Assembly (NCBI RefSeq): GCF_014489595.1
Contig: NZ_CP060790.1
Span: 434,001-498,000, forward strand
DNA from: Paenacidovorax monticola
Lineage (GTDB): Bacteria > Pseudomonadota > Gammaproteobacteria > Burkholderiales > Burkholderiaceae_C
Direction: 5' to 3'
DNA: 64,000 nt
Shown here in pieces: positions 51,579-64,000 of this stretch. The first letter of the stretch is position 1. The number at the start of each line of letters is the position of its first letter. Below the pieces are notes generated by a model. That model was given only the letters and a program-made list of their open reading frames with translations, was not told the DNA's origin and ran no database searches. The position numbers and the translations under genes were made by a program.

Positions 51579-54500
51579 CTAGGGGCGGGCGGTGCTGGGC
51601 GACAGGTGGCCTGCACGTTGCCGCTGCCGGCGAGGCTGCAGGGGGAACACCCTGCCGACGGCCACGAAGAACAGCGGCACGAAGAAGATCGCAAGCACCG
51701 TCGCCGTGATGATCCCGCCCAGGACGCCGGTGCCGATGGCGTTCTGTGCGCCCGAGGCGGCCCCCGAGGCAAAGGCCAGCGGGAGCACGCCCACGCCGAA
51801 TGCCAGCGAGGTCATCACGATGGGCCGCAGCCGCAGCCGGGCCGCCTCCGTGGCGGCTTCCAGCAGGGACAGGCCTTCGGCGTGCAGGTCCTTGGCCACT
51901 TCGACGATCAGGATCGCGTTCTTTGCCGAGAGGCCGATCGTGGTGATGAGCCCGACCTTGAGGTAGATGTCGTTGGGCATGCCGCGCAGCGTCACCCCGA
52001 GCGCGGCGCCAAGCAGTCCCAGGGGCACGACCAGCAGGACCGCCAGCGGGATCGACCAGCTCTCATAGAGCGCGGCCAGCGCCAGGAACACGACGAGCAC
52101 CGTGAGCGCGAACAGCATGGGGGCCTGTGCACCCGACTGGCGCTCTTCCAGCGACTGCCCGGACCACGCGTGGCCCACGCCGGCCGGCAGCGTGGCTGCG
52201 ATGCGCTCCATGGCGCCCATGGCCTCGCCACTGCTGTGGCCGGGGGCGGCCGAGCCATTGATGGTGAACGACGGGAACCCGTTGTAGCGGGTGAGCTGGG
52301 GCGGCCCCAGCGACCAGTGCAGCCGGGCGAAGGCGGACAGGGGCACCATGCCGCCCTCGGCGTTGCGCACATGCAGCTTCGTCACGTCCTGCGGGTCAAG
52401 CCGGTGGCGGCCGTCGGCCTGCACGATCACGCGGCGCACCTGCGCGCCGTGCATGAAGTCGCCCACGTAGTCGGAGCCGAACATGACAGCCAGGGTGGCG
52501 TTGATCTCGCCCATGGATACGCCCAGGGCCGAGGCCTTCGCGCGGTCGATGTCGAGCTTGAGGTGCGGAGCGTCCTGCGCGCCGGCGAACATCAGTTCCG
52601 CGAGCGCAGGACTCTTGAGCCCTTCGGCCAGCAGCTTCTCGCGCGCGGCGGCGAAGGCCGCATGGCCCATGCCGCCGCGGTCCTGCAGCCGGAAGTCGAA
52701 CCCGCCCGTCGAGCCCAGGTCGGGCAGGGCGGGGGAGTTCATGGCGAACACCGTGGTGTTCGGCGTGTCCGCGAAGCGCGCGTTGATGCGCGCGATGATC
52801 GCCTGCACCTGGTCCTGCGTGCCCTTGCGCTGGCCCCAGTCCCGCAGGGTGATGTAGATCATGCCCCCGTTGGCGCCCTCGCCATGCAGGTTGTAGCCGC
52901 CCAGCGCGAAGGTGTAGGCCGATGGCTCTTCCTGCCGGATGTACTCCTCGACCTGGCGCACGCTTTCCATGGTTTCGGCCAGGGGCGTGCCCTGCGGTCG
53001 GATCACCATCGCCATGAAGTTGCCCTGGTCCTCGTCCGGCAGGAACGCCGTGGGCAGCCGCGCGAGCAGCAGCACGGCGATCGCGCTCAATGCGCCGTAG
53101 ATGGCCAGCCAGCGCAGGGGCCTGGCCAGTACCGTGCCGACGCGGCCCGTGTAGCGCTGCGTGGTGCGGGCGACGAACCGGTTGAACGCGCCGAAGAAGC
53201 CGCGCTTCTCGTGGTGATCGTCCGCCACGGGGCGCAGCAGCGTGGCGCACAGCGCGGGCGTGAGCGACAGCGCCAGAAAGGCCGAGAAGCCGATCGAGAC
53301 CGCCAGCGTGAGGGCGAACTGCCGGTAGATGTTGCCGACCGCGCCGCCAAAGAGCGCCATGGGCACGAACACCGAGGTCAGCACGACCGTGATGCCGATG
53401 ATGGCGCCACTGATCTGGCCCATGGCCTTGATGGTGGCGCGGTAGGGTGAGAGCCGCTCCTCGACCATGAGGCGCTCCACGTTCTCCACGACCACGATGG
53501 CGTCGTCCACCAGGATGCCGATCGCCAGCACCATGCCGAACATCGTCAGCACGTTGATCGAGAAGCCGGCGGCAAGCATCACGCCGAAGGTGCCCAGCAG
53601 CGCCACGGGCACCACCAGCGTGGGGATCAGCGTGGCGCGCAGGTTCTGCATGAACAGGAACATCACGATGAAGACCAGCGCTCCAGCCTCGGCCAGCGTG
53701 GTCAGCACCTTCTGGATGGACACGCGCACGAACGACGAGGTCTCGTACGGAATCTGGTAAGCCACCCCCGCGGGAAAGAACTTCGCGAGGTCGTCCATCG
53801 TCTGGCGCACGCGCTGCTCGGTGGCCACCGCGTTCGAGCCGGGCGCGAGCTTGATGCCCATGCCGGTTGCGGTCTTGCCGTTCACGTACGACGGGTAGTT
53901 GTAGTCGTTGCCGCCGAACTCGACGCGCGCGACATCGCGCAGGAGCAGCGTGGCGCCGTCGGCGCGCGCGCGCAGCGCGATGGCGCCGAAGTCGGCGGGT
54001 GTCTGTAGCGGCGCGTCGGCCAGCACGGAGGCCGCGATGGGGGCACTGTCGGGCACGGCGCTGCGGCCGATGTCGCCCACGGTCACGCGCGCGTTGTGGG
54101 CGCGCACGGCCGAGACGATGTCGGAGGCCGTGAGCCCCTGTCCGGCCATCTTGACCGGATCGGGCCAGATGCGCATGGCGTGTTCCGCGCCCCAGAACTG
54201 CACCTTGCCCACGCCCTCCACGCGCCTCAGAGCCTGCACCACGTTGGCCGACGCGTACTCGCCGAGCTGCACTGCGTTGAGGCGGCCGTCCTCGGAGGTG
54301 AGCGAGACCACGAGCTGGATGTTGTCTGCGGCCTTTTCGACCGAGATGCCGTCGCGCCGCACGGGCTCGGGCAGGCGCGCCTCGACGGTCTTGAGGCGGT
54401 TCTGCACCTCGACCGCGGCCAGGTCGGCGTTGATGCCCTGCCTGAAGGTGAGCGCGAGCGATGCCGAGCCGGTGCTGCTGGTCGCCGAGGTGTACATCAG

Positions 54501-54722
54501 GCCGGGCGCGCCGTTCATCTCGCGCTCGATGATGGCGGTGACGGATTCCTCGACGACCTTCGCCGAGGCGCCCGGATACGCCGCATAGATGCTGACAACG
54601 GGCGGCGCGATGTCCGGATACTGGGCCACCGGCAGCGCGCGGATGGCGAAGGCACCGCCCAGCATGATGAGCAGCGAGATCACCCAGGCGAAGACCGGGC
54701 GATCGATGAAGAAACGGGCCAT
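51579..54722 (-). CDS. RND multidrug efflux transporter, inner-membrane pump (HAE1/AcrB family)
   Basis: 1047 residues. N-terminus MARFFIDRPVFAWVISLLIM is classical HAE1. Twelve helices in two halves; the proton relay residues occur in GMVLAIGILVDDAIVVVENV (adjacent Asp pair) with the matching Lys in the second half (GLSAKNAILIVEVA). It exports drugs or toxic compounds using proton influx, as a trimer. It follows the fusion protein gene by 13 bases. No outer-membrane channel or regulator gene is adjacent. Confidence 0.95.
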   Translation of the reverse strand: MARFFIDRPVFAWVISLLIMLGGAFAIRALPVAQYPDIAPPVVSIYAAYPGASAKVVEESVTAIIEREMNGAPGLMYTSATSSTGSASLALTFRQGINADLAAVEVQNRLKTVEARLPEPVRRDGISVEKAADNIQLVVSLTSEDGRLNAVQLGEYASANVVQALRRVEGVGKVQFWGAEHAMRIWPDPVKMAGQGLTASDIVSAVRAHNARVTVGDIGRSAVPDSAPIAASVLADAPLQTPADFGAIALRARADGATLLLRDVARVEFGGNDYNYPSYVNGKTATGMGIKLAPGSNAVATEQRVRQTMDDLAKFFPAGVAYQIPYETSSFVRVSIQKVLTTLAEAGALVFIVMFLFMQNLRATLIPTLVVPVALLGTFGVMLAAGFSINVLTMFGMVLAIGILVDDAIVVVENVERLMVEERLSPYRATIKAMGQISGAIIGITVVLTSVFVPMALFGGAVGNIYRQFALTLAVSIGFSAFLALSLTPALCATLLRPVADDHHEKRGFFGAFNRFVARTTQRYTGRVGTVLARPLRWLAIYGALSAIAVLLLARLPTAFLPDEDQGNFMAMVIRPQGTPLAETMESVRQVEEYIRQEEPSAYTFALGGYNLHGEGANGGMIYITLRDWGQRKGTQDQVQAIIARINARFADTPNTTVFAMNSPALPDLGSTGGFDFRLQDRGGMGHAAFAAAREKLLAEGLKSPALAELMFAGAQDAPHLKLDIDRAKASALGVSMGEINATLAVMFGSDYVGDFMHGAQVRRVIVQADGRHRLDPQDVTKLHVRNAEGGMVPLSAFARLHWSLGPPQLTRYNGFPSFTINGSAAPGHSSGEAMGAMERIAATLPAGVGHAWSGQSLEERQSGAQAPMLFALTVLVVFLALAALYESWSIPLAVLLVVPLGLLGAALGVTLRGMPNDIYLKVGLITTIGLSAKNAILIVEVAKDLHAEGLSLLEAATEAARLRLRPIVMTSLAFGVGVLPLAFASGAASGAQNAIGTGVLGGIITATVLAIFFVPLFFVAVGRVFPLQPRRQRQRAGHLSPSTARP

Positions 54723-54735
54723 GGGATTCGGTGTG

Positions 54736-55890
54736 TCAGGATTTCGGAGCCGAGGGGGCGGCAGCGGACGCTGCCGCAGGCTCGACCGCCTTGACGGCGG
54801 CGCCTTCCTCGAACTGGGCCGGGTTGTGGGTCACGACGCGCTCGCCGCCTTGCAGCCCGTGGGTGACCTGCCAGTCGCGCCCCCGCATGTCGCGGGTCTC
54901 GACGGCCACGTCGCGGATCTTGCCGTCGTCGCCCACCACCTTCACGATCGCGCGGTCGGCCGTGCGCAGCACGGTGTCGCGTGGCACGAGGATGGCGCTG
55001 CGTTCGACTGCGTGCCGCAGGCCGATGCGCACGTAGGCTCCGGGCAGCAGATCGTGCCCGGGGTTGGGGAACACCGCGCGCATCGCCACGGTGTCGGTGG
55101 CGGGATCGACGGCCAGGTCGGCGAACAGCAGCTTGCCCTTGTGCGGGTAGGGCGTGCCGTCCGCTCGCAGCAGGGTGACTTCCACGTCTTCCCTCGCCAG
55201 GCGCGAGGCGCGCCCGGTCTGCACGGCGCGGCCCAGGGCCTCGACGTCGGCCGCAGGCTGCGAGAAGTTCACATAGATGGGGTCGATCTGCTCCACGGAC
55301 GTGAGGGGCGTGGCCTGGTCCTGTCCGACCAGGGCGCCTTCGGTGACGAGGGCCCGGCGTGCGCGTCCCTGGATGGGCGCCGTGACCGTGGTGTAGCCCA
55401 GTTGGAGTTCGGCTCGGGCCAGTTCCGCCCGCGCGGACTGCACGGCCGCACGGGTCTGCTGCTCCTCGGCGACGGCCTGGAGGTGCTCGCGCCGGCTCAC
55501 GGCATCGGTCTCGACCAGGGTCTCGTAGCGCGTCCGCTTGTCGGCGGCGGCCAGCAGTGCGGCCTGGGCCTGGGCCAGGGCTCCGGCGGCGGCATCGCGC
55601 GCGGCCCTGAGGGGCGCCGGGTCGATGCGGAACAGCACGGCACCCTGGCGCACTTCCTGGCCCTCGTCGTAGGTGCGCGCCGTGACGATGCCGGACACGC
55701 GTGCGCGCACCTCGGCCCGGCGGTAGGCCTCGAGCCGGCCGGGCAGTTCGACCGCCAGCGGCAGGGACTGCGCGCGCACGGTGGTCACCACGGCATCGCG
55801 CGGCTGCACGGCGGCTTCGGTGGGTGCCTTGTCCGTGCAGCCTGCGAGGAGCAGGGCTGCAAAGAGCATCGGGGCAGGAGGGCGGGGCAC
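54736..55890 (-). CDS. RND efflux periplasmic adaptor (AcrA-type lipoprotein)
   Basis: 384 residues. Lipobox FAALLLAGC, then the barrel-sandwich domain (ELPGRLEAYRRAEVRARVSG), a coiled-coil hairpin (about 100-160), and beta-barrel and membrane-proximal domains (IDPIYVNFSQPAADVEALGR, PNPGHDLLPGAYVRIGL). It bridges the inner-membrane pump to an outer-membrane channel and is encoded directly before it. Confidence 0.94.
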   Translation of the reverse strand: MPRPPAPMLFAALLLAGCTDKAPTEAAVQPRDAVVTTVRAQSLPLAVELPGRLEAYRRAEVRARVSGIVTARTYDEGQEVRQGAVLFRIDPAPLRAARDAAAGALAQAQAALLAAADKRTRYETLVETDAVSRREHLQAVAEEQQTRAAVQSARAELARAELQLGYTTVTAPIQGRARRALVTEGALVGQDQATPLTSVEQIDPIYVNFSQPAADVEALGRAVQTGRASRLAREDVEVTLLRADGTPYPHKGKLLFADLAVDPATDTVAMRAVFPNPGHDLLPGAYVRIGLRHAVERSAILVPRDTVLRTADRAIVKVVGDDGKIRDVAVETRDMRGRDWQVTHGLQGGERVVTHNPAQFEEGAAVKAVEPAAASAAAPSAPKS

Positions 55891-56387
55891 TCAAAGGCCC
55901 GGTTTCTGTGCGTCATAAGTGGCGTGTCGACTGGTGTGGAGACGGCGCGTTTCGCGTCCTGGCTTGCGGTACGGCGAGACAGCATGGCCATGACCGGTCC
56001 CTCGTGCATGGGCTGGAGCGCGGGCCTGGAGCGGAGGGATCGGGGGCCCGTGCGCCATCCAGGCTCTGCGCGGGCTGGTGCTCATGTGGGGGCGCTGCTC
56101 AGCGGCCGGATGGGGACGGGGCCTCGGGTGGCTGGCCGCCGGCCTGGGGGCAGGCGGCCTGGCTGGGGAGGCAAGACAGGTCTTGCGGACATTCTCCGCG
56201 GATCACCGCGCGGACCGAAGTTGGATTCGATCCAGAGAATAGATGGATGGCCTGCGTCGCGACGGTGGTGGGCCTCGCGGGCGCATGTACCGCCGGTGGC
56301 ACGCCGTGCGCTCTGCACCGGCGGTGCCTTGCTGCATGATGCCAAGGGAGTTTGGCCCGTTCTCGTCCTCTTTCTCGGCTGTCCGTC
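55891..56387. other. Intergenic region, no gene recognised
   Basis: About 500 bases between the divergent efflux operon and the histidine kinase. All frames give only low-complexity GC translations and none shows a helix-turn-helix, although a TetR or MarR repressor is often found here. It holds the two divergent promoters. Confidence 0.5.
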
Positions 56388-58465
56388 ATGCACAACGAAT
56401 CACGAACACTCACACCTTCCGCACGCCTGCAGTGGACGGCGTTCGCGGGCTTCTTCGCCTGGGTGCTCGCATCGCTCGGACTGGTGGCGTTCTTTGTGCT
56501 CAGCCCTGCCGTGTTCTCGCTGCCAGGGCCGGGGCTGCGGCTGGGCACCGACTGGCCCCAGCAGATGCTGGTGGACCCCGAGGGGCGCCTGACGGTGGAG
56601 GAGGTGGCCGCATTGCCCGACGCCGCGTTCACCGTGCTGCACGGTCCATTGAATGGAGGCTACAACCGCAGCGTGTACTGGCTGCGCGCCAGCGCCCCTC
56701 GCATCGAACCCCGGCCGGGCGACCCCCTGTGGCTGGAGATCACTCCCTCATACCTGGACCGGGTCACGCTCTACCAGCCGGGCGTGCACGGGTGGCAGGA
56801 GCAGCACAGCGGCGACACCGTTCCAATGGCGCAGCGCGTGCAGGTGCGCCAGCTGGTGTTTCCGCTGGCCGAGGCGCAGCCGCTCATCCTGCGCGTCGAT
56901 ACCAGCAGTTCCGTGCAGGTGTACGGCGCGGTGTGGCGCGGCTCGGAGCTGATGGCCCGGCTGTCCAGCGTGGAGTGGGCATCGGGCGTGCACCAGGGCA
57001 TCAACCTGCTGCTGGCGCTGTTGATTGGCGGCGCGGCCCTCGCGCTGCGCATGCGCAGCCTCACGGCCATGGCCGTGCTGTCCGCCGTGGTGCTGGTGCA
57101 TGGCGCCAACGTGCGGGGCTATGCGCAGGTCTGGCTGCCCAGCCAGCTGGCGCCATGGGGTGACCTGCTGGTCAGCGTGGGGGTCTTCGTCCTGCCGGCG
57201 GCCTTCGCCTGGCAGGTGCGCGAGCTGCTGACCCGCGGCACGCGCTGGCACCGCATTGACAAGGTGCTGCTCGCATTGATCGTGGCGCCCCTGTTGGCCA
57301 TTGCCAGCATTCCGCTGGGGCGCTTTCACCAGTGGGCCACGCTGGCGGTTTCGGTGCCGTGGGCCGTCAGCGCGCTGGGCTCCTGGGTGGCCTGGAGCAA
57401 TCTGCGACGCGAGGGACCGTCGATCGTGGGCGTGCTCATGGTCGTTCCCTACTCGCTGCATGCGGCGCTGGGCCTGCATGTCGCGGCCGCGTATTCGGGG
57501 TGGGTGACCTCCACCGTGGAGGTGGGCGTCTTCTGGCAGCTGGAGGCCCTGCTGCTCAACATCCTGATCGCGGTCGCCGTGGGCCTGAGCCTGGTGGAGC
57601 AGTTCCGCGCCTCGGTCGCGCGCCAGGCGCAACTGGTGGACTCACTCGCCCGGTCCGAGCAGGCCCTGGAAGAGCGCGTGCGCCTGCGCACCACGGAGCT
57701 GCTCCAGGCGCAGAACGCGCTGCAGGCGGCCCTGCACAGCGAACGCGAGATGCGGGTGGAGCAGCGCCATTTCTTCAACATGATCAACCACGAGTTCCGC
57801 ACGCCGCTGGCGGTGGTGGACAGCGCGGCCACCGAGTTGTGGACCTTCCCCTCGCCAGATCTCGACACCCAGGTCGAGCGGGCGGCGCAGATCCGCCGTG
57901 CGTGCCGGCGCCTGACGACCCTGGTGGACAACTGCCTGGTGAGCGACCGGCTGGAAGCGCCGGGTTTCCGGCTGCGGCCCAGCCCCGTGTCCCTTGCGGA
58001 ACTGGCGGACGAGGTGGCCCAGATCGTGGCCTGGTCGCCGCGCCACCGCCTGGCGCTGTCGATCGAGGACTCGGTGAGCGAGTGGGTGTGCGACCCGATA
58101 CTGGTGCACATCGCGCTGTCCAATCTCGTGGACAACGCGGTGAAGTATGCGCAGGCGGGTGAGATCCGCATTGCCGCGTGGCTGGAGGCGCCGGGCGTGC
58201 TGGGCCTGTCGGTGGCCGACGAAGGGCCGGGGCTGGCGCCGGAAGCGGCTCAGCGCATCTTCGAGCGCGGGGAGCGCGGCGAACGTTCGGACCAGGCCCG
58301 GGGCTTCGGCCTGGGGCTGTGGGTGGCGCGGCGCATTGCCCGGTTGCATGGCGGGGACGCGCGGGTTGCTCCGTCCGGGCTGGGGGGACCTGCTTCACGC
58401 TCACCCTGTCCGCGGTCGCGGAGGGCGTGGATGTGCCCCGGCTGGCGGTCGACGAAACCCCGTGA
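56388..58465 (+). CDS. 7TMR-DISM sensor histidine kinase, frameshifted at its C-terminus
   Basis: 692 residues after repair. N-terminal helix, periplasmic 7TMR-DISM sensor (about 60-190), seven helices (GINLLLALLIGGAALALRM to LEALLLNILIAVAVGLSLVE), coiled coil, HisKA with FFNMINHEFRTPLAVVDSA, and HATPase (NLVDNAVKYA, DEGPGL, GFGLGLWVARRIARLHGG). The last strand is in another frame: one base added to the G-run at 58382-58387 yields TCFTLTLSAV and a stop at 58465. No response regulator gene is adjacent. An IS element begins 70 bases after. Confidence 0.88.
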
Positions 58466-58598
58466 ATGGCGCGCCGGCCGGTCGCCTTTGGCACACGCCA
58501 TGAAAAAAGCCCTGACTCTTGCGAATCTTTTTTTTTGAAGTCCCCTCGAAAACCTGAACCACCCGGAAGTAGAGAATTCCCCCGGCAGGAGTCTCTAC

Positions 58599-58865
58599 GT
58601 GAAGAAATCCAGATTCAGCGAAGCCCAGATAGTGGGCATCCTCAAAGAAGTCGAGATGGGTGCCAAGGTCGGTGAGACGTGCAGAAAGCACGGCATCAGC
58701 GAGCCGACGTACTACAAATGGAAGAGCCAGTTCTCGGGCATGACGGTCTCTCACCTGGCGCAGCTTCGCCAACTGCAGGACGAGAACGCCAAGCTTAAGC
58801 GCATGTACGCCGACCTGGCGCTGATGCACCACGCGCTCAAGGATGTCGTTGATCGAAAGCTCTGA
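58599..58865 (+). CDS. IS3-family transposase OrfA
   Basis: 88 residues: helix-turn-helix ([36 protein letters not shown]) and a leucine-zipper-like helix. It binds the IS ends. Near its stop, A_AAG at 58856-58859 is a -1 slip site leading into orfB. Confidence 0.93.
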
Positions 58866-59695
58866 CCCCGGAGCGTCGCGAGATGGTCGTTCAAACCCTC
58901 GTGGACGAGCACGGCATGAGCGAGCGACGTGCCTGCCAGGCCAGCGGCATCGCCCGCTCCACGCTGCGCTACCGGCCCGTTGCACGCGACGACTCCGGGG
59001 GCATCACCTTCATTCAGGCCTACATGGCACTGAACCCGCGTCACGGCTTTGGCCTGCTGTACGACAGTGCCCGTCACCAAGGCCAGCCCTGGGGCAAGAC
59101 GGTGCTCTGGCGCGTGTACTGCGAACTGCGGTTGAACCTGCCACGGCGTGGCAAGAAGCGGTTGCCCGCGCGCATCAAACAGCCACTACAGGCCGCTGGC
59201 CAACCCAACCAGGGCTGGAGCTGCGACTTCATGGCCGATGCGCTGTGGTCGGGACGGCGCTTCAGGACCTTCAACGTCATCGACGAATTCAACCGCGAGG
59301 GCCTGCGTATTGAAGTCGATACCAGCCTGCCTGCTGCTCGCGTCATCCGGGCTCTCAGTGAGTTGGTGGAGGTGCGCGGTGCACCGCTGTCGATTCGCCT
59401 GGACAACGGGCCCGAGTTCATTGCCGATGCGCTGGCGAAATGGGCGCAGTCCAAGGGCATTGCCCTTAACCATATCCAGCCTGGCAAGCCTACGCAGAAC
59501 GCCTATGTCGAACGATTCAACAAGACCTACCGCACCGAGGTGCTGGACTGCTACGTCTTCGATTCACTGCAGGAGGTGCGTGACATGACGGCCGACTGGC
59601 TACACCGATACAACCACCATCGACCCCATGAAGCCCTCGGCCGAATCCCACCGGTCGAGTACCGTGTCAAACTGTTCCCCAACCTCTACTTCTGA
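58859..59695 (+). CDS. IS3-family transposase OrfB, catalytic part made by -1 frameshift
   Basis: The frame continues from the slip as [19 protein letters not shown]; the first ATG alone is at 58883. Retroviral-type DDE integrase core: first Asp in [11 protein letters not shown], second in [13 protein letters not shown], Glu in [17 protein letters not shown], all present, so the enzyme looks active. OrfAB fusion by frameshift is normal for IS3 elements. Confidence 0.9.
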
Positions 59696-59748
59696 GTGGC
59701 TCAGGTATTTGAGGGGACTTCATAAGCGCTCAATCAGAGAGGCATTTC

Positions 59749-62628
59749 GTGGTAAGTTCCGCCGAAAGCAGCATCCCGTTCGCGCATACCGCGCACCACG
59801 CAAAGTACTTTGCATGGGAACTCACACGTCGCCGCGCGGCATCTGAAGAAGACCGCCTGGCGCAATCGCTGTTCGATGCCAGCGTTGACCTGAATCCGCA
59901 CCAGATTGACGCTGCGCTTTTCGCGCTCAATAACCCGCTCAGTAAAGGCGTGGTGCTGGCCGACGAAGTCGGTCTGGGCAAGACCATTGAAGCCGCGCTG
60001 GTGCTGTGCCAGTTGTGGGCCGAGCGACGGCTCCGCCTTCTGGTGATCTGTCCGGCGGCCTTGCGCAAGCAATGGGCGCAGGAACTGGCCGACAAGTTCA
60101 ACCTGCCCGCCGAAGTGCTCGATGCACGCACCTGGCACCGGCTACGTGAAAGCGGCATCTACGACCCTCTGGACCGTGACGTCATCAGCGTCATGTCCAT
60201 CCATTTCGCCGCCCGCATGGAAACCCAGCTGGCGGCCGTGCCGTGGGATGTGGTCGTCATTGATGAAGCCCACAAGCTGCGCAACGCCCATCGCAAGAGC
60301 CATGAAACCGGGCAGGCGCTCAAGCGCGCTTTGGCCGGGCGCAAGAAGCTGCTGCTGACCGCCACACCCCTGCAGAACTCCTTGATGGAGCTGTATGGCC
60401 TCACCTCGCTCATTGACGAAGAAATCTTCGGAGACGAGCGCAGCTTCCGTTCACAGTACAGCAGCATCGATGGCGACATTCAGTCTTTGCGCCGCCGCCT
60501 GCAACCTTTCATCAAGCGCACTTTGCGGCGTGATGTGTTGGAGTACGTGCCGTATACCCAGCGTCATGCGCTCACCACGCCGTTTTCCCCCTCAGAGGAG
60601 GAAGTTCAGTTCTACGAGCTGATCTCTGCCTACCTGCAACGCGACTTCAGCTACGGTTTCCCTAGCCGGCAGAAGCACCTGGTCGGGCTCATCTTGCGCA
60701 AGCTGCTGGCCTCGTCCACCGAAGCCGTAGTGGCCACCCTGGACGCCATTCGCACCCGGCTGCAGCGCTTGCTGGACAAGCAGACAATCGACGAAGAGTG
60801 GATTCAACAGCTGATTGAAGAAGAAGACCTCGACGAAGAACTGCTGGAAGAGGACGACCCGGTTGCCCCACACGCCGACGGCACGCCGCCGGTGGACTAT
60901 GCCCTGGTGCGCGAGGAACTGGCCGAGCTGGACGAATACCTGCGTCTGGCCCGCAACATCCGTGAAGACCAGAAGTCCCACGCGCTGTTGTCGGCGCTGC
61001 AGCAAGGCTTTGAGCGCATGGGTGCCATGGGCGCGGCCCGCAAGGCGGTGATCTTCACGGAGTCCCGTCGCACGCAAGACTATCTGGCCCGCTACCTTGA
61101 AGCCCACGGCTACGCAGGCAAGGTCACGATGTTCAGCGGTGGCAACCAAGGCCCCGCGTCCACGGGCATCTACCAGCGCTGGCTGGCCCAATACACCGGC
61201 AGTGACCGCGTGACCGGTTCCCCAGCCATTGACCGCCGCACAGCGCTCATCGACCACTTCCGCCAAGAGTCGGAAATCCTCATTGCCACCGAAGCCGCGG
61301 CCGAGGGTGTCAATCTGCAGTTCTGTTCCCTCGTCGTCAACTACGACCTGCCCTGGAACCCGCAGCGTGTGGAGCAACGCATCGGCCGCTGCCACCGCTA
61401 CGGCCAGCGGTTCGATGTGGTGGTCATCAACTTTCTGAACCAGCGCAATGCGGCCGATCAGCGCGTGCTGGAGCTGCTGCAAGACAAGTTTCACCTGTTC
61501 GACGGCGTGTTCGGCGCATCTGACCAGGTGCTGGGCCAGATCGAAAGCGGCATCGACTTTGAAAAGCGCATTGCCGAGATTTACGACCGGTGCCGCACCC
61601 CGGCCGACATCGACGCCGCCTTTGCGCAGCTCCGCACCGAGCTCGACGCCGACATCCAGGCCCGCATGCAAGAGACCGAAAAGCTCTTGTTGGAGCACTT
61701 CGACGCCGACATCCACGACCTCCTTCGCAGCCAGAAAGAGCGAGCCGAAAGCCAGCTCGACCGCATCACCCGGTTTTTCTGGTGGCTCACGCAGTACGTG
61801 CTGGCCGGGCAAGCCCGATTTGACAACACCAAGCTGGGCTTCGACCTGCAGGTGCCCCCTGTGTTGCAGGCACCCACCGGCGCCTACCAGCTCATCCGCA
61901 AAGGCGAAACACCGCCCGAACACGCCCGCGTCTACCGGTTGACCCATCCACTGGGCCAATACGTGCTCGACACCGGGCGCCACCTGCAAGCGCCCCTGCA
62001 GAGCCTGACCTTTCACTACGGCAGCCACAAGCCCCGCATCAGCATGGTGGAGCGCCTGGTGGGGCAGAGCGGCTGGATGCAGCTCAGCCTGCTGGAGCTC
62101 GACAGCTTTCAGCACGAAGAACACCTGGTGTTCACCGCCCTCACCGACACCGGGGAAGTGCTGGACCAGGAAAGCTGCGAGAAGCTCTTCTACCTGCTGG
62201 CCACCACCACCGACCTGCAAACCAGCCCGCCCATGGAGCTGCAGGCCAACGCCCAGCGTCAGCTCGAAGCCACCCTCAGCCGCGCGCTGGAGCTCAACGA
62301 CCAGTTCTTCCAGCAGGAGCGCGACAAGCTCGAAGCCTGGGCCGAAGACCGCATCGTCTCCGCCGAGCAGGCCCTTAAAGACACCAAGCTCAAGCTCAAA
62401 GGCCTGAAACGCCAAGCCCGCATGGCGCTCAGCATGGAAAACGCCCAGCGCCTCCAGCAAGACATCCGCAAGACCGAAACCGAGCAGCGCCGCCAGCGGC
62501 AAGACATCTTTGCGGTGGAGGACGAAATCGAAGCCCGGCGCGACGCACTCATTGCCGCCCTGCAGAAACGCTTGCACCGCGCCAGCCGCAACCAGAGTTT
62601 GTTTGTGGTGCGTTGGAGCGTGGTTTAA
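59749..62628 (+). CDS. SNF2/RapA-type DEAD/DEAH helicase, likely defence-associated
   Basis: 959 residues, GTG start with AGAGAGG upstream. SNF2 ATPase: Walker A DEVGLGKT (residues 72-79), DEAH (172-175), LLLTATPLQNS; helicase C with ILIATEAAAEGVNLQFC and EQRIGRCHRYGQ. An acidic insert (about 345-375, EEEDLDEELLEEDD) and a long C-terminal coiled coil (about 860-940) follow. Such helicases are common beside modification methylases and in defence islands (for example drmD of DISARM). It is the first gene of the final operon; the IS lies 26 bases before its start. Confidence 0.85.
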   Translation: MVSSAESSIPFAHTAHHAKYFAWELTRRRAASEEDRLAQSLFDASVDLNPHQIDAALFALNNPLSKGVVLADEVGLGKTIEAALVLCQLWAERRLRLLVICPAALRKQWAQELADKFNLPAEVLDARTWHRLRESGIYDPLDRDVISVMSIHFAARMETQLAAVPWDVVVIDEAHKLRNAHRKSHETGQALKRALAGRKKLLLTATPLQNSLMELYGLTSLIDEEIFGDERSFRSQYSSIDGDIQSLRRRLQPFIKRTLRRDVLEYVPYTQRHALTTPFSPSEEEVQFYELISAYLQRDFSYGFPSRQKHLVGLILRKLLASSTEAVVATLDAIRTRLQRLLDKQTIDEEWIQQLIEEEDLDEELLEEDDPVAPHADGTPPVDYALVREELAELDEYLRLARNIREDQKSHALLSALQQGFERMGAMGAARKAVIFTESRRTQDYLARYLEAHGYAGKVTMFSGGNQGPASTGIYQRWLAQYTGSDRVTGSPAIDRRTALIDHFRQESEILIATEAAAEGVNLQFCSLVVNYDLPWNPQRVEQRIGRCHRYGQRFDVVVINFLNQRNAADQRVLELLQDKFHLFDGVFGASDQVLGQIESGIDFEKRIAEIYDRCRTPADIDAAFAQLRTELDADIQARMQETEKLLLEHFDADIHDLLRSQKERAESQLDRITRFFWWLTQYVLAGQARFDNTKLGFDLQVPPVLQAPTGAYQLIRKGETPPEHARVYRLTHPLGQYVLDTGRHLQAPLQSLTFHYGSHKPRISMVERLVGQSGWMQLSLLELDSFQHEEHLVFTALTDTGEVLDQESCEKLFYLLATTTDLQTSPPMELQANAQRQLEATLSRALELNDQFFQQERDKLEAWAEDRIVSAEQALKDTKLKLKGLKRQARMALSMENAQRLQQDIRKTETEQRRQRQDIFAVEDEIEARRDALIAALQKRLHRASRNQSLFVVRWSVV

Positions 62629-62650
62629 TGTTCTTGAAATTACATTTTGA

Positions 62651-62777
62651 CGACATGTTTTGAAATTCGTGTCGTCAAGAACGACACGAATTCAGAACAT
62701 GTCGCCGTTTTTCTGAAACAAGAACATGTTTTGTTGACGTGTCGTCGGTGGCGACATAAGCTGCTCATCTGTCGCCA
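62651..62777. promoter_or_regulatory. Nested palindrome array upstream of fic
   Basis: Outer arms CGACATGTT (62651) and AACATGTCG (62696) enclose an inner perfect dyad AATTCGTGTCGT-CAAGA-ACGACACGAATT (62664-62692). A second dyad TGGCGACA / TGTCGCCA lies at 62749-62777, and GAACATGTTTTG and GACGTGTCGTC lie between. The word TGTCG/CGACA occurs at least seven times in 130 bases. It separates the helicase stop from the fic start, so it is an operator array or a recombination/structured RNA element. Confidence 0.6.
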
Positions 62778-62795
62778 AAAAACGCTTTTTGCATC

Positions 62796-63914
62796 ATGAC
62801 CGACGCCACCCTTGCCTGGCACCCCGAGCAGCCCCACAACCAGCTGCCTGCGCTGCCCCCGGCGCACGAGCTGGAGACCCGGGCCGTGCTCAAGGCCTGC
62901 ATCGAGGCCCGCGCTGCGCTGGCCGAGCTCAAGCAGGCCGCCGAGCTGATCCCCAACCAGGCGATGCTGATCAACACCATCCCGCTGCTGGAAGCCAAAG
63001 ACAGCTCGGAAATCGAAAACATCGTCACCACGACCGACCAGCTGTTCCAGTACGCACAAGGCCACGACAACGCCGACCCAGCCACCAAAGAAGCCCTGCG
63101 CTACCGCACCGCGCTGCACCAAGGCTTTCAGTCGCTCAAGGCCCGGCCGCTGTGCACCGCCACCGCCGTAGACGTGTGCCGCACCCTCAAAGGGGTGGAC
63201 ATGGACATCCGCCGCACCCCGGGCACCCAGCTCGCCAACGACCGCACCGGCGAGGTGGTCTACACCCCGCCCGAAGGTGAGGCCCGCCTGCGCGACATGT
63301 TGGCCAACTGGGAGCGCTTTCTGCATAACCAGACCGAGCTGGACCCCTTGATCCGCATGGCTGTGGGCCACTACCAGTTCGAAGCCATCCACCCGTTCAC
63401 CGACGGCAACGGCCGCACCGGCCGCGTGCTCAACATCCTCTACCTCATTCAGGAAGAGCTGTTGAATCTGCCCATCCTGTACCTCAGCCGCCATGTGATC
63501 GCCCACAAGGCTGATTACTACCGCCTGCTGCTCAGCGTCACGCGCGACGGCGCTTGGGAGCCCTGGCTGCTCTTCATGCTGCAGGCCGTGGCCGACACCT
63601 CCAAATGGACCACCGGCAAGATCGCCGCCATCCGCGCGCTGGCCGAACACACCACCGAACACATGCGCACCCGCCTGCCCAAGATCTACACCCGCGAGCT
63701 GGTGGACGTGATCTTTGAGCAGCCTTGCTGTCGCATCGGCAACCTGGTGGACAAAGGCATAGCCCAACGCCAGGCTGCCTCACGCTACCTGCACGACCTT
63801 GCCGCCCTGGGCGTGCTGCGCGAAATGCCATTCGGCAAAGAAAAACTATTCATTCACCCCAAGCTGATGCAACTGCTCAGCCGGGACAACAATCAATTCC
63901 AGCCTTACGCCTGA
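62796..63914 (+). CDS. Fic-family protein (AMPylase type) with C-terminal winged helix
   Basis: 372 residues. Fic motif [12 protein letters not shown] starts at H199, all catalytic residues present, so it should transfer AMP (or another NMP) to a protein. An N-terminal inhibitory motif of the class II form [S/T]xxxE[N/G] is at S70-E74-N75 (SEIEN). Residues about 300-360 ([20 protein letters not shown]) look like a winged helix, which suggests DNA binding and possible autoregulation at the palindromes just upstream. It lies between the helicase and a further gene starting 11 bases after its stop. Confidence 0.9.
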
Positions 63915-63925
63915 CAGCCCCACCC

Positions 63926-64000
63926 ATGAGCACCACCAACGACAACAAGCGCCAGCAGCTCATCAGCAAGCTCCGAGAGATGTTCCAGATGGACCAGGCA
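63926..64000 (+). CDS. Next gene of the operon, N-terminus only (possible DNA methyltransferase)
   Basis: 25 codons, MSTTNDNKRQQLISKLREMF then QMDQA, cut by the window edge. From memory this start resembles a group of adenine-specific modification methylases found next to SNF2 helicases, but 25 residues cannot prove it. It starts 11 bases after the fic stop, so it is in the same operon. Confidence 0.4.
   Translation, partial: MSTTNDNKRQQLISKLREMFQMDQA

Follow-up and report, generated by a model that had tools for sequence, protein, structure and literature searches.

The 64,000-nucleotide stretch of Paenacidovorax monticola DNA analysed here (the window; C1:434001-498000 of a 4.68-Mb one-contig genome, with the contig read onward to C1:531000) ends within an operon that is probably a type III-like restriction-modification (RM) unit combined with an SNF2-family helicase and an embedded, probably self-repressed Fic gene of the SoFic family. 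Between the helicase gene and fic lies a cluster of short inverted half-sites, a putative operator that we call the lattice. From sequence comparison, we consider it most likely that the SoFic winged helix binds this lattice and represses fic, mod, the AAA gene and res, because the lattice precedes SoFic at 35 of 35 loci counted and is found at none of 26 more distant Fic genes. SoFic is a known toxin with poorly understood control, and a rigid, portable putative operator before it in alpha-, beta- and gammaproteobacteria offers an in vitro handle on what its winged helix does. The lattice is a new element relative to the literature searched; that search, whose reach excluded most subscription papers and preprints, returned no SNF2-Fic-type III operon or SoFic operator that we recognised.

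Genes of the operon and known relatives

The first gene (59749..62628, + strand, GTG start) encodes a DrmD-like SNF2-family helicase of 959 aa, identified with Pfam, NCBIfam and PADLOC. Its SNF2 (121.8 bits) and Helicase_C (67.8 bits) domains, with GLGKT at 75 and DEAH at 172, agree with an earlier note on the window, which had called the helicase complete. After 167 bp, fic follows on the same strand (62796..63914) and encodes a predicted SoFic-family class II Fic AMPylase of 372 aa with a C-terminal winged-helix-type domain. Over its full length the protein matched NCBIfam NF046030 at 650.5 bits (cut-off 550); it also matched PADLOC PDLC03963 at 406 bits, the SoFic-type C-terminal domain PF21248 at 112.9 bits, and the S. 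oneidensis SoFic structures with E values of 3e-161 to 9e-164. The catalytic motif HPFTDGNGR begins at H199 and the class II inhibitory motif SSEIEN occupies residues 70-75, in keeping with the inhibitory helix and winged helix that the note had read from the sequence.

Only the first 25 codons of the third gene lie in the window (63926..64000), beginning 11 bp past the fic stop codon, and the note had likened them to modification methylases. Read past position 64000, the gene runs on the + strand to C1:501093 (L002:5927-9094 in our locus coordinates) and encodes Mod, a type III-like N6-adenine methylase of 1055 aa in which DPPY at 513 precedes FAGSGS at 806. Mod matched the PADLOC type III model PDLC03646 at 702 bits and EcoP15I (PDB 4zcf) with an E value of 3.8e-44. 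After 1 bp comes an AAA ATPase gene with AAA_21 and AAA_15 matches (L002:9096-10633), which is split by a frame change after its Walker A part; locus L008 has an open copy, and by our gene calls the SNF2, fic, mod, AAA and res frames are all open in both L008 and L014. The frame change adjoins a short G run and could be a sequencing error. Overlapping the AAA gene by 1 bp, res (L002:10633-13872) encodes a protein of 1079 aa that matched the PADLOC type III model PDLC03654 at 667 bits and contains GSGKT at 166, DEAH at 271 and PDF...DPK from 968, the motifs of an SF2 helicase with a PD-(D/E)xK nuclease. Among 16 long Res proteins of relatives, strict patterns picked up DEAH in 3 and the nuclease motif in 6, and the window's Res matched no solved structure at E 0.1.

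The likeness to type III RM enzymes such as EcoP15I lies in the order of DPPY before FxGSG in Mod and in the Walker A, DEAH and PD...DPK motifs of Res. The differences are that Mod is about 400 aa longer (1055 versus 644) and that the operon adds the SNF2 helicase, Fic and the AAA ATPase. PADLOC family matches were compared in full for Mod and Res and as the best 25 for SNF2 and the AAA pieces. The operon is not DISARM: SNF2 belongs to the DrmD superfamily of class 1 DISARM but fell below the NCBIfam DISARM/DrmD cut-offs (641 versus 950 bits, and 273.6 versus 610), and no DrmA, DrmB or DrmC appeared in the PADLOC matches of Mod and Res or among those listed for the AAA pieces. Among the matches listed for SNF2, one DrmA model scored weakly (135 bits, compared with 630 bits for DrmD) and HmaA reached 190 bits, lower than the DrmD score; HmaB was absent from the 24 families matching Mod, while HmaC may lie among AAA-piece families beyond the best 25. 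PADLOC's HEC is expanded as 'Hma embedded candidates' in the excerpts of PMC10855318 available to us. BREX was also rejected, since SNF2 matched BrxH (237 bits) but PglZ, BrxC and BrxL were absent among the matches listed for the operon genes. The note had placed a Fic inside a helicase/methylase operon outside the standard DISARM, BREX and restriction types that it knew; the operon is read here as a type III-like RM unit plus an SNF2 helicase with an embedded SoFic.

Nor is this a wholly new type, because restriction operons with embedded toxins have been published; toxins within restriction operons are an established theme, and the window's operon extends a known kind. In the excerpts available, PrrC accompanies a type Ic enzyme, Doc is located near RloC (PMC3710099), and DarTG2 is embedded in a type I operon on an island where RptR is a separate repressor (PMC12255303). 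These share with the window a toxin-like effector in or beside a restriction operon, whereas PrrC and DarTG2 are other effectors in type I operons, and the window's SoFic, unlike DarTG2 with its separate RptR, would be repressor and effector in one.

SoFic itself is described as a toxin with anti-phage action, and EcSofic toxicity as requiring dimerisation and the C-terminal domain, in those parts of PMC12249575 that we drew on, which mention no operator. The window's protein shares the inhibitory helix, HPFxDGNGR and C-terminal domain of this single-gene system (PDB 3eqx, 3zcn, 9vjc) and differs in sitting within an SNF2-Mod-AAA-Res operon. By analogy with the published toxin, Fic is plausible as the toxic arm of the operon, one of two roles that the earlier note had offered. 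The same source gives E. coli SoFic a 47-residue antitoxin gene downstream; the window has none, because Mod begins 11 bp after fic and occupies that position. Phage records yielded a single distant Fic match (40.8%). In S. oneidensis, the SoFic gene presumably lies beside type I restriction genes.

Half-sites before SoFic genes

The gap between SNF2 and fic (62629..62795, + strand) contains seven TGTCG/CGACA half-sites, at 62651, 62670, 62682, 62700, 62740, 62752 and 62770, compared with a shuffle mean of 1.05, and seven were reached in none of 500 shuffles. Nowhere else in the 78 kb scanned does this 5-mer cluster as densely within 150 bp. Two exact palindromes with a 7-bp gap (62670 and 62740) stand out, while partners at a 17-bp gap are degenerate by eye. 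A promoter-like TTGACG-N17-TAAGCT with a weak -10 (62734..62762, + strand) has the second palindrome, TGTCG-N7-CGACA (62740-62756), as its spacer, and the same arrangement occurs in L005, L006, L016, L018 and L060, the last of which is not linked to SNF2.

We counted half-sites before SoFic at 35 loci, namely the window, 14 SNF2-linked loci, 10 without SNF2 (L058-L067) and 10 named records (two E. coli chromosomes, Pantoea, Cedecea and six Rhizobiales plasmids). Counts ranged from 3 to 9 in the window and SNF2-linked loci (shuffle means 0.5-1.3; highest P 0.024, in L011), from 4 to 7 in L058-L067 and from 4 to 8 in the named records. At least three half-sites were therefore present at every locus, in type I operons, type III operons and stand-alone contexts, compared with 3.1% of random 200-bp pieces from the same loci. 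TGTCG/CGACA topped all 5-mers before SoFic; the next, which overlaps it, reached 24 of 35 loci. These loci are partly related, L011/L012/L020 and L102/L106 being near-identical in the gap. The 35 include L099, which carries a frameshift annotation, and L067, which extends beyond the end of its contig. Left out were L021, whose SNF2 frame is split and whose printed gap has half-sites, and L015, which carries another Fic. The stand-alone SoFic genes on Rhizobiales plasmids L101, L102, L103, L105 and L107 lie near repABC or toxin-antitoxin genes, placed like a plasmid maintenance gene.

The spacing of the half-sites is also conserved. The gap from TGTCG to CGACA was 7 (27 pairs), 17 (34) or 47 bp (40) in 101 of 116 pairs at most 60 bp apart, and that from CGACA to TGTCG was 13 or 14 bp in 57 of 99. 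Across 186 sites the consensus was AYRTGTCG, followed mostly by A/C, T/C and R. In the recognition-helix region, Fics with the lattice have R[QE]xxSxYLK and those without it mostly R.TA..YL.

Beyond the window there were 43 Fic places, of which 40 were fetched (G046:C165, G056:C6 and G004:C7 were left out) and 37 gave upstream counts, no Fic frame being called in L069, L074 and L095. The 26 more distant Fics among L070-L097 had 0 to 2 half-sites and none had three; in L069, a lattice precedes a frame-broken SoFic. The comparison strongly supports regulation by Fic through the palindromes, the other role the note had proposed. Where SoFic is missing after SNF2, in L004 and L007, three and four half-sites remain behind SNF2, and in L015, where a different Fic fills the position, TGTCG sites occur only in the SNF2-near part of the gap and the Fic-near part is other sequence. 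That gap (L015:12848-13060) contains other repeats (GCGTATTG, CGATAC), perhaps the operator of that Fic.

Across a class-wide sample of 369 genomes, the exact 17-bp form was matched 24 times, in 16 genomes, compared with 4 times, in 3 genomes, for a reversed-pattern control. Six genomes had it before SoFic (G256, G119, G145, G077, G201 and G001), two before a broken SoFic (G167 and G136) and one at a distant Fic (G250); four are considered below as counter-evidence, and the remaining three look like chance. For the exact 7-bp form there were 33 matches, spread over 23 genomes (control: 9 matches in 9 genomes), and many are due to chance.

Published precedents for Fic proteins at DNA are known to us from excerpts. 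CccR of Yersinia pseudotuberculosis, a Fic protein with a C-terminal helix-turn-helix, represses its own promoter through palindromes, the role proposed here for SoFic (PMC9755527). That paper gives it 29% identity to SoFic at 45% coverage; its operator is a single inverted repeat of different sequence with a 26-bp spacer, and its gene adjoins a secretion-system effector cluster, unlike the window's. CbFic2 binds DNA, which alters its activity, and DNA binding by SoFic is not demonstrated according to PMC10628234.

Recurrence of the operon, proposed mechanism and alternatives

An SNF2 scan of genome contigs gave 20 loci, with the matches in L022 and L023 stopping within 400 bp of a contig end. 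Of the 18 relatives whose sequence extends beyond the helicase, 15 have SoFic next to SNF2; the exceptions were L015, with a different Fic (32% identity), and L004 (Acidovorax) and L007 (Rhodoferax), with none. Mod followed SoFic in all 15, as its start only in L005 and L006 and as a broken stub in L021, so the helicase, Fic and third gene do co-occur in other genomes. Res was seen in 12 loci. The Fic-Mod gap was 10-21 bp in 13 of 14 loci and longer in L008, and the Mod start in L005 is an ATG matching its relatives. SoFic carriers among the SNF2 relatives include Rubrivivax, Dechloromonas, Aquabacterium, Piscinibacter and several Pseudomonas.

A wider set of SNF2 loci (39-64% identity; 20 of 21 places fetched, G163 left out) contained no SoFic, one other Fic (L043) and 16 Mod matches; of the four without a Mod match, the contig ends in three. 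Four plasmid loci viewed carry SNF2-Mod-Res without an adjacent SoFic. SNF2-Mod-Res is the constant part, because these wider and plasmid loci keep Mod or Res without SoFic. In the variable slot between SNF2 and Mod, a survey of ten proteins (nine slot genes and one Res) found a subtilase with an AAA protein (L044), GmrSD with DUF5655 (L045), AIPR (L047), AAA_13 (L049), Schlafen AlbA_2 (L053), KilA-N (L042), HipA (L038) and a protein of no family (L048). We take AAA_13 to cover PrrC-like proteins. The slot Fics of L015 and L043 have Fic_N and Fic domains, and that of L015 also has a weak SoFic-like C-terminus below cut-off. Between Mod and Res lay an AAA gene (window, L008, L014), AAA_21 with DUF4276 (L024) or no gene at all (for example in L009 and L016). 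The slot supplies a list of candidate effectors. Through an SNF2-Mod-Res unit whose effector slot varies, the PrrC principle of backing up restriction with a toxin would reach beyond type I to type III-like systems.

Parts have been exchanged among these loci: identity to the window drops at differing points and genes between relatives. L005, L016 and L018 match the window at 83-84% in DNA from SNF2 through fic into about 160 Mod codons and then diverge, whereas L004 and L007 match at 89-90% up to the SNF2 stop codon, and L014 matches from SNF2 to Res except in the SNF2-Fic gap and the AAA gene. In protein identity, L016 reaches 94% for SNF2, 93% for Fic, 47% for Mod and 50% for Res, and L014 reaches 76, 83, 76 and 84%.

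On balance, we slightly favour a type III-like RM operon with an SNF2 helicase and a built-in, self-regulated SoFic that controls the unit and backs it up. Judging from their families, Mod would methylate host DNA and Res would cut unmethylated DNA, perhaps aided by SNF2. SoFic dimers would bind the half-sites through the winged helix and repress fic; the lattice promoter probably drives mod, the AAA gene and res as well, because gaps between these genes are at most 11 bp, which would make Fic the controller of the restriction unit. If repression or the inhibitory helix were relieved, by phage attack or loss of the complex, Fic may AMPylate host proteins and so add a second, abortive defence behind restriction. 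Within this scheme the evidence is strongest for the repressor step and weaker for the coupling to restriction. A bolder form, which we hold tentatively and below an even chance, makes SoFic both the repressor of the RM unit and its suicide effector, such that leaving the DNA would raise restriction and free the AMPylase, with SNF2-Mod-Res as the carrier of an exchangeable slot (Fic, HipA, GmrSD, AIPR, Schlafen, AAA_13).

Several observations weigh against the favoured scheme. A lattice is lacking before the SoFic of L068, which is below cut-off and has its N-terminus cut off, and lattice-like sites occur with no Fic match within 3 kb in G082, G314:C66, G140 and G212. A strict sigma-70 consensus and terminator scan of 62500-62900 found nothing, and the -10 is poor. 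Pseudomonas-type loci have, by eye, a terminator-like hairpin between the lattice and fic. Among 20 SoFic loci that do not belong to the SNF2 group, 3 have an N6_Mtase within 8 kb. Finally, the window's own copy may be impaired, because its AAA gene is frame-broken and an insertion sequence (IS) stands directly before SNF2. The hairpin, GC-rich with a short T-rich tail, is found in L009, L010, L011, L012, L017, L019 and L020 and is a possible attenuator.

An unlikely alternative is that SoFic is a stand-alone defence gene, equipped with its own operator, that inserted between SNF2 and Mod and represses only itself, with no functional tie to restriction. The lattice precedes SoFic in all 10 named records, which have no annotated mod, res or hsd within 8 kb (the plasmid gene tables are incomplete), and no restriction genes were seen near most of the SoFic genes viewed that are not in the SNF2 group; in L099, a gene for a phosphorothioate-dependent restriction endonuclease lies at a distance of about 5 kb. 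In the 369 genomes, SNF2 (E <=1e-100) was found in 22 and SoFic (E <=1e-60) in 43, 11 over cut-off, and a SoFic over cut-off adjoins SNF2 only in the window's genome. However, the SNF2-SoFic-Mod order recurs in 15 relatives from several Burkholderiales and Pseudomonas-type hosts with tight Fic-Mod spacing, and the slot in wider relatives carries effector-like genes, including other Fics.

We regard as more doubtful still a PrrC-like arrangement in which Fic is silenced by contact with Mod, Res or SNF2 and freed when a phage disables restriction, the lattice serving only dosage control. The PrrC precedent, Doc toxins near restriction genes (PMC3710099, from excerpts) and the effector-like genes in the slot fit this arrangement, as does the proximity (8 kb or less) of Fic-family genes to an N6_Mtase, seen at 10 of 43 places where about 0.6 would be expected, a rough expectation that ignores broken contigs; three of the ten are SoFics over cut-off. 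Yet SoFic has its own inhibitory helix and exists without Mod, Res or SNF2 genes, and there is little sign of Fic-Mod co-evolution, because at the SNF2-SoFic loci Mod partners are 40-76% identical to the window's and Fics 77-93%. That another regulator binds the lattice and SoFic merely sits behind it is very improbable, the Fic-less sites named above notwithstanding, since one fixed-gap lattice accompanies SoFic in hosts and contexts that are unrelated, and the 26 sister Fics lack it. Lattice-like TGTCG sites with no Fic match within 3 kb in L137, L142, L154 and L157, beside genes for ADP-ribosylglycohydrolase, an AbiEi-like protein, HipA and Nmad2-SNF2, may be relics or belong to another regulator.

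Insertion sequences and flanking genes

An IS3-family element of 1187 bp (58536..59722, + strand; NCBIfam transpos_IS3), with transposase genes at 58599-58865 and 58883-59695, ends 26 bases before the SNF2 start, as the earlier note had observed. The genome has three full copies; the second (C1:505910-507096) lies behind Res in reverse orientation, followed by tRNA-Thr(CGT) (L002:15168-15243), and the third is at C1:3998320-3999506. Two inverted copies therefore box the operon, but a composite transposon was rejected: transposition of the whole operon is not supported because the flanks, by eye, share no target duplication. Before the first copy, the long frame of a sensor kinase gene (56352-58538) owes its stop codon to the IS, and an overlapping frame with a stop near 58465 resembles a natural kinase end, a possible frame break. 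Further upstream, genes on the minus strand (51579-55890) resemble, by eye, an RND efflux pump and its adaptor.

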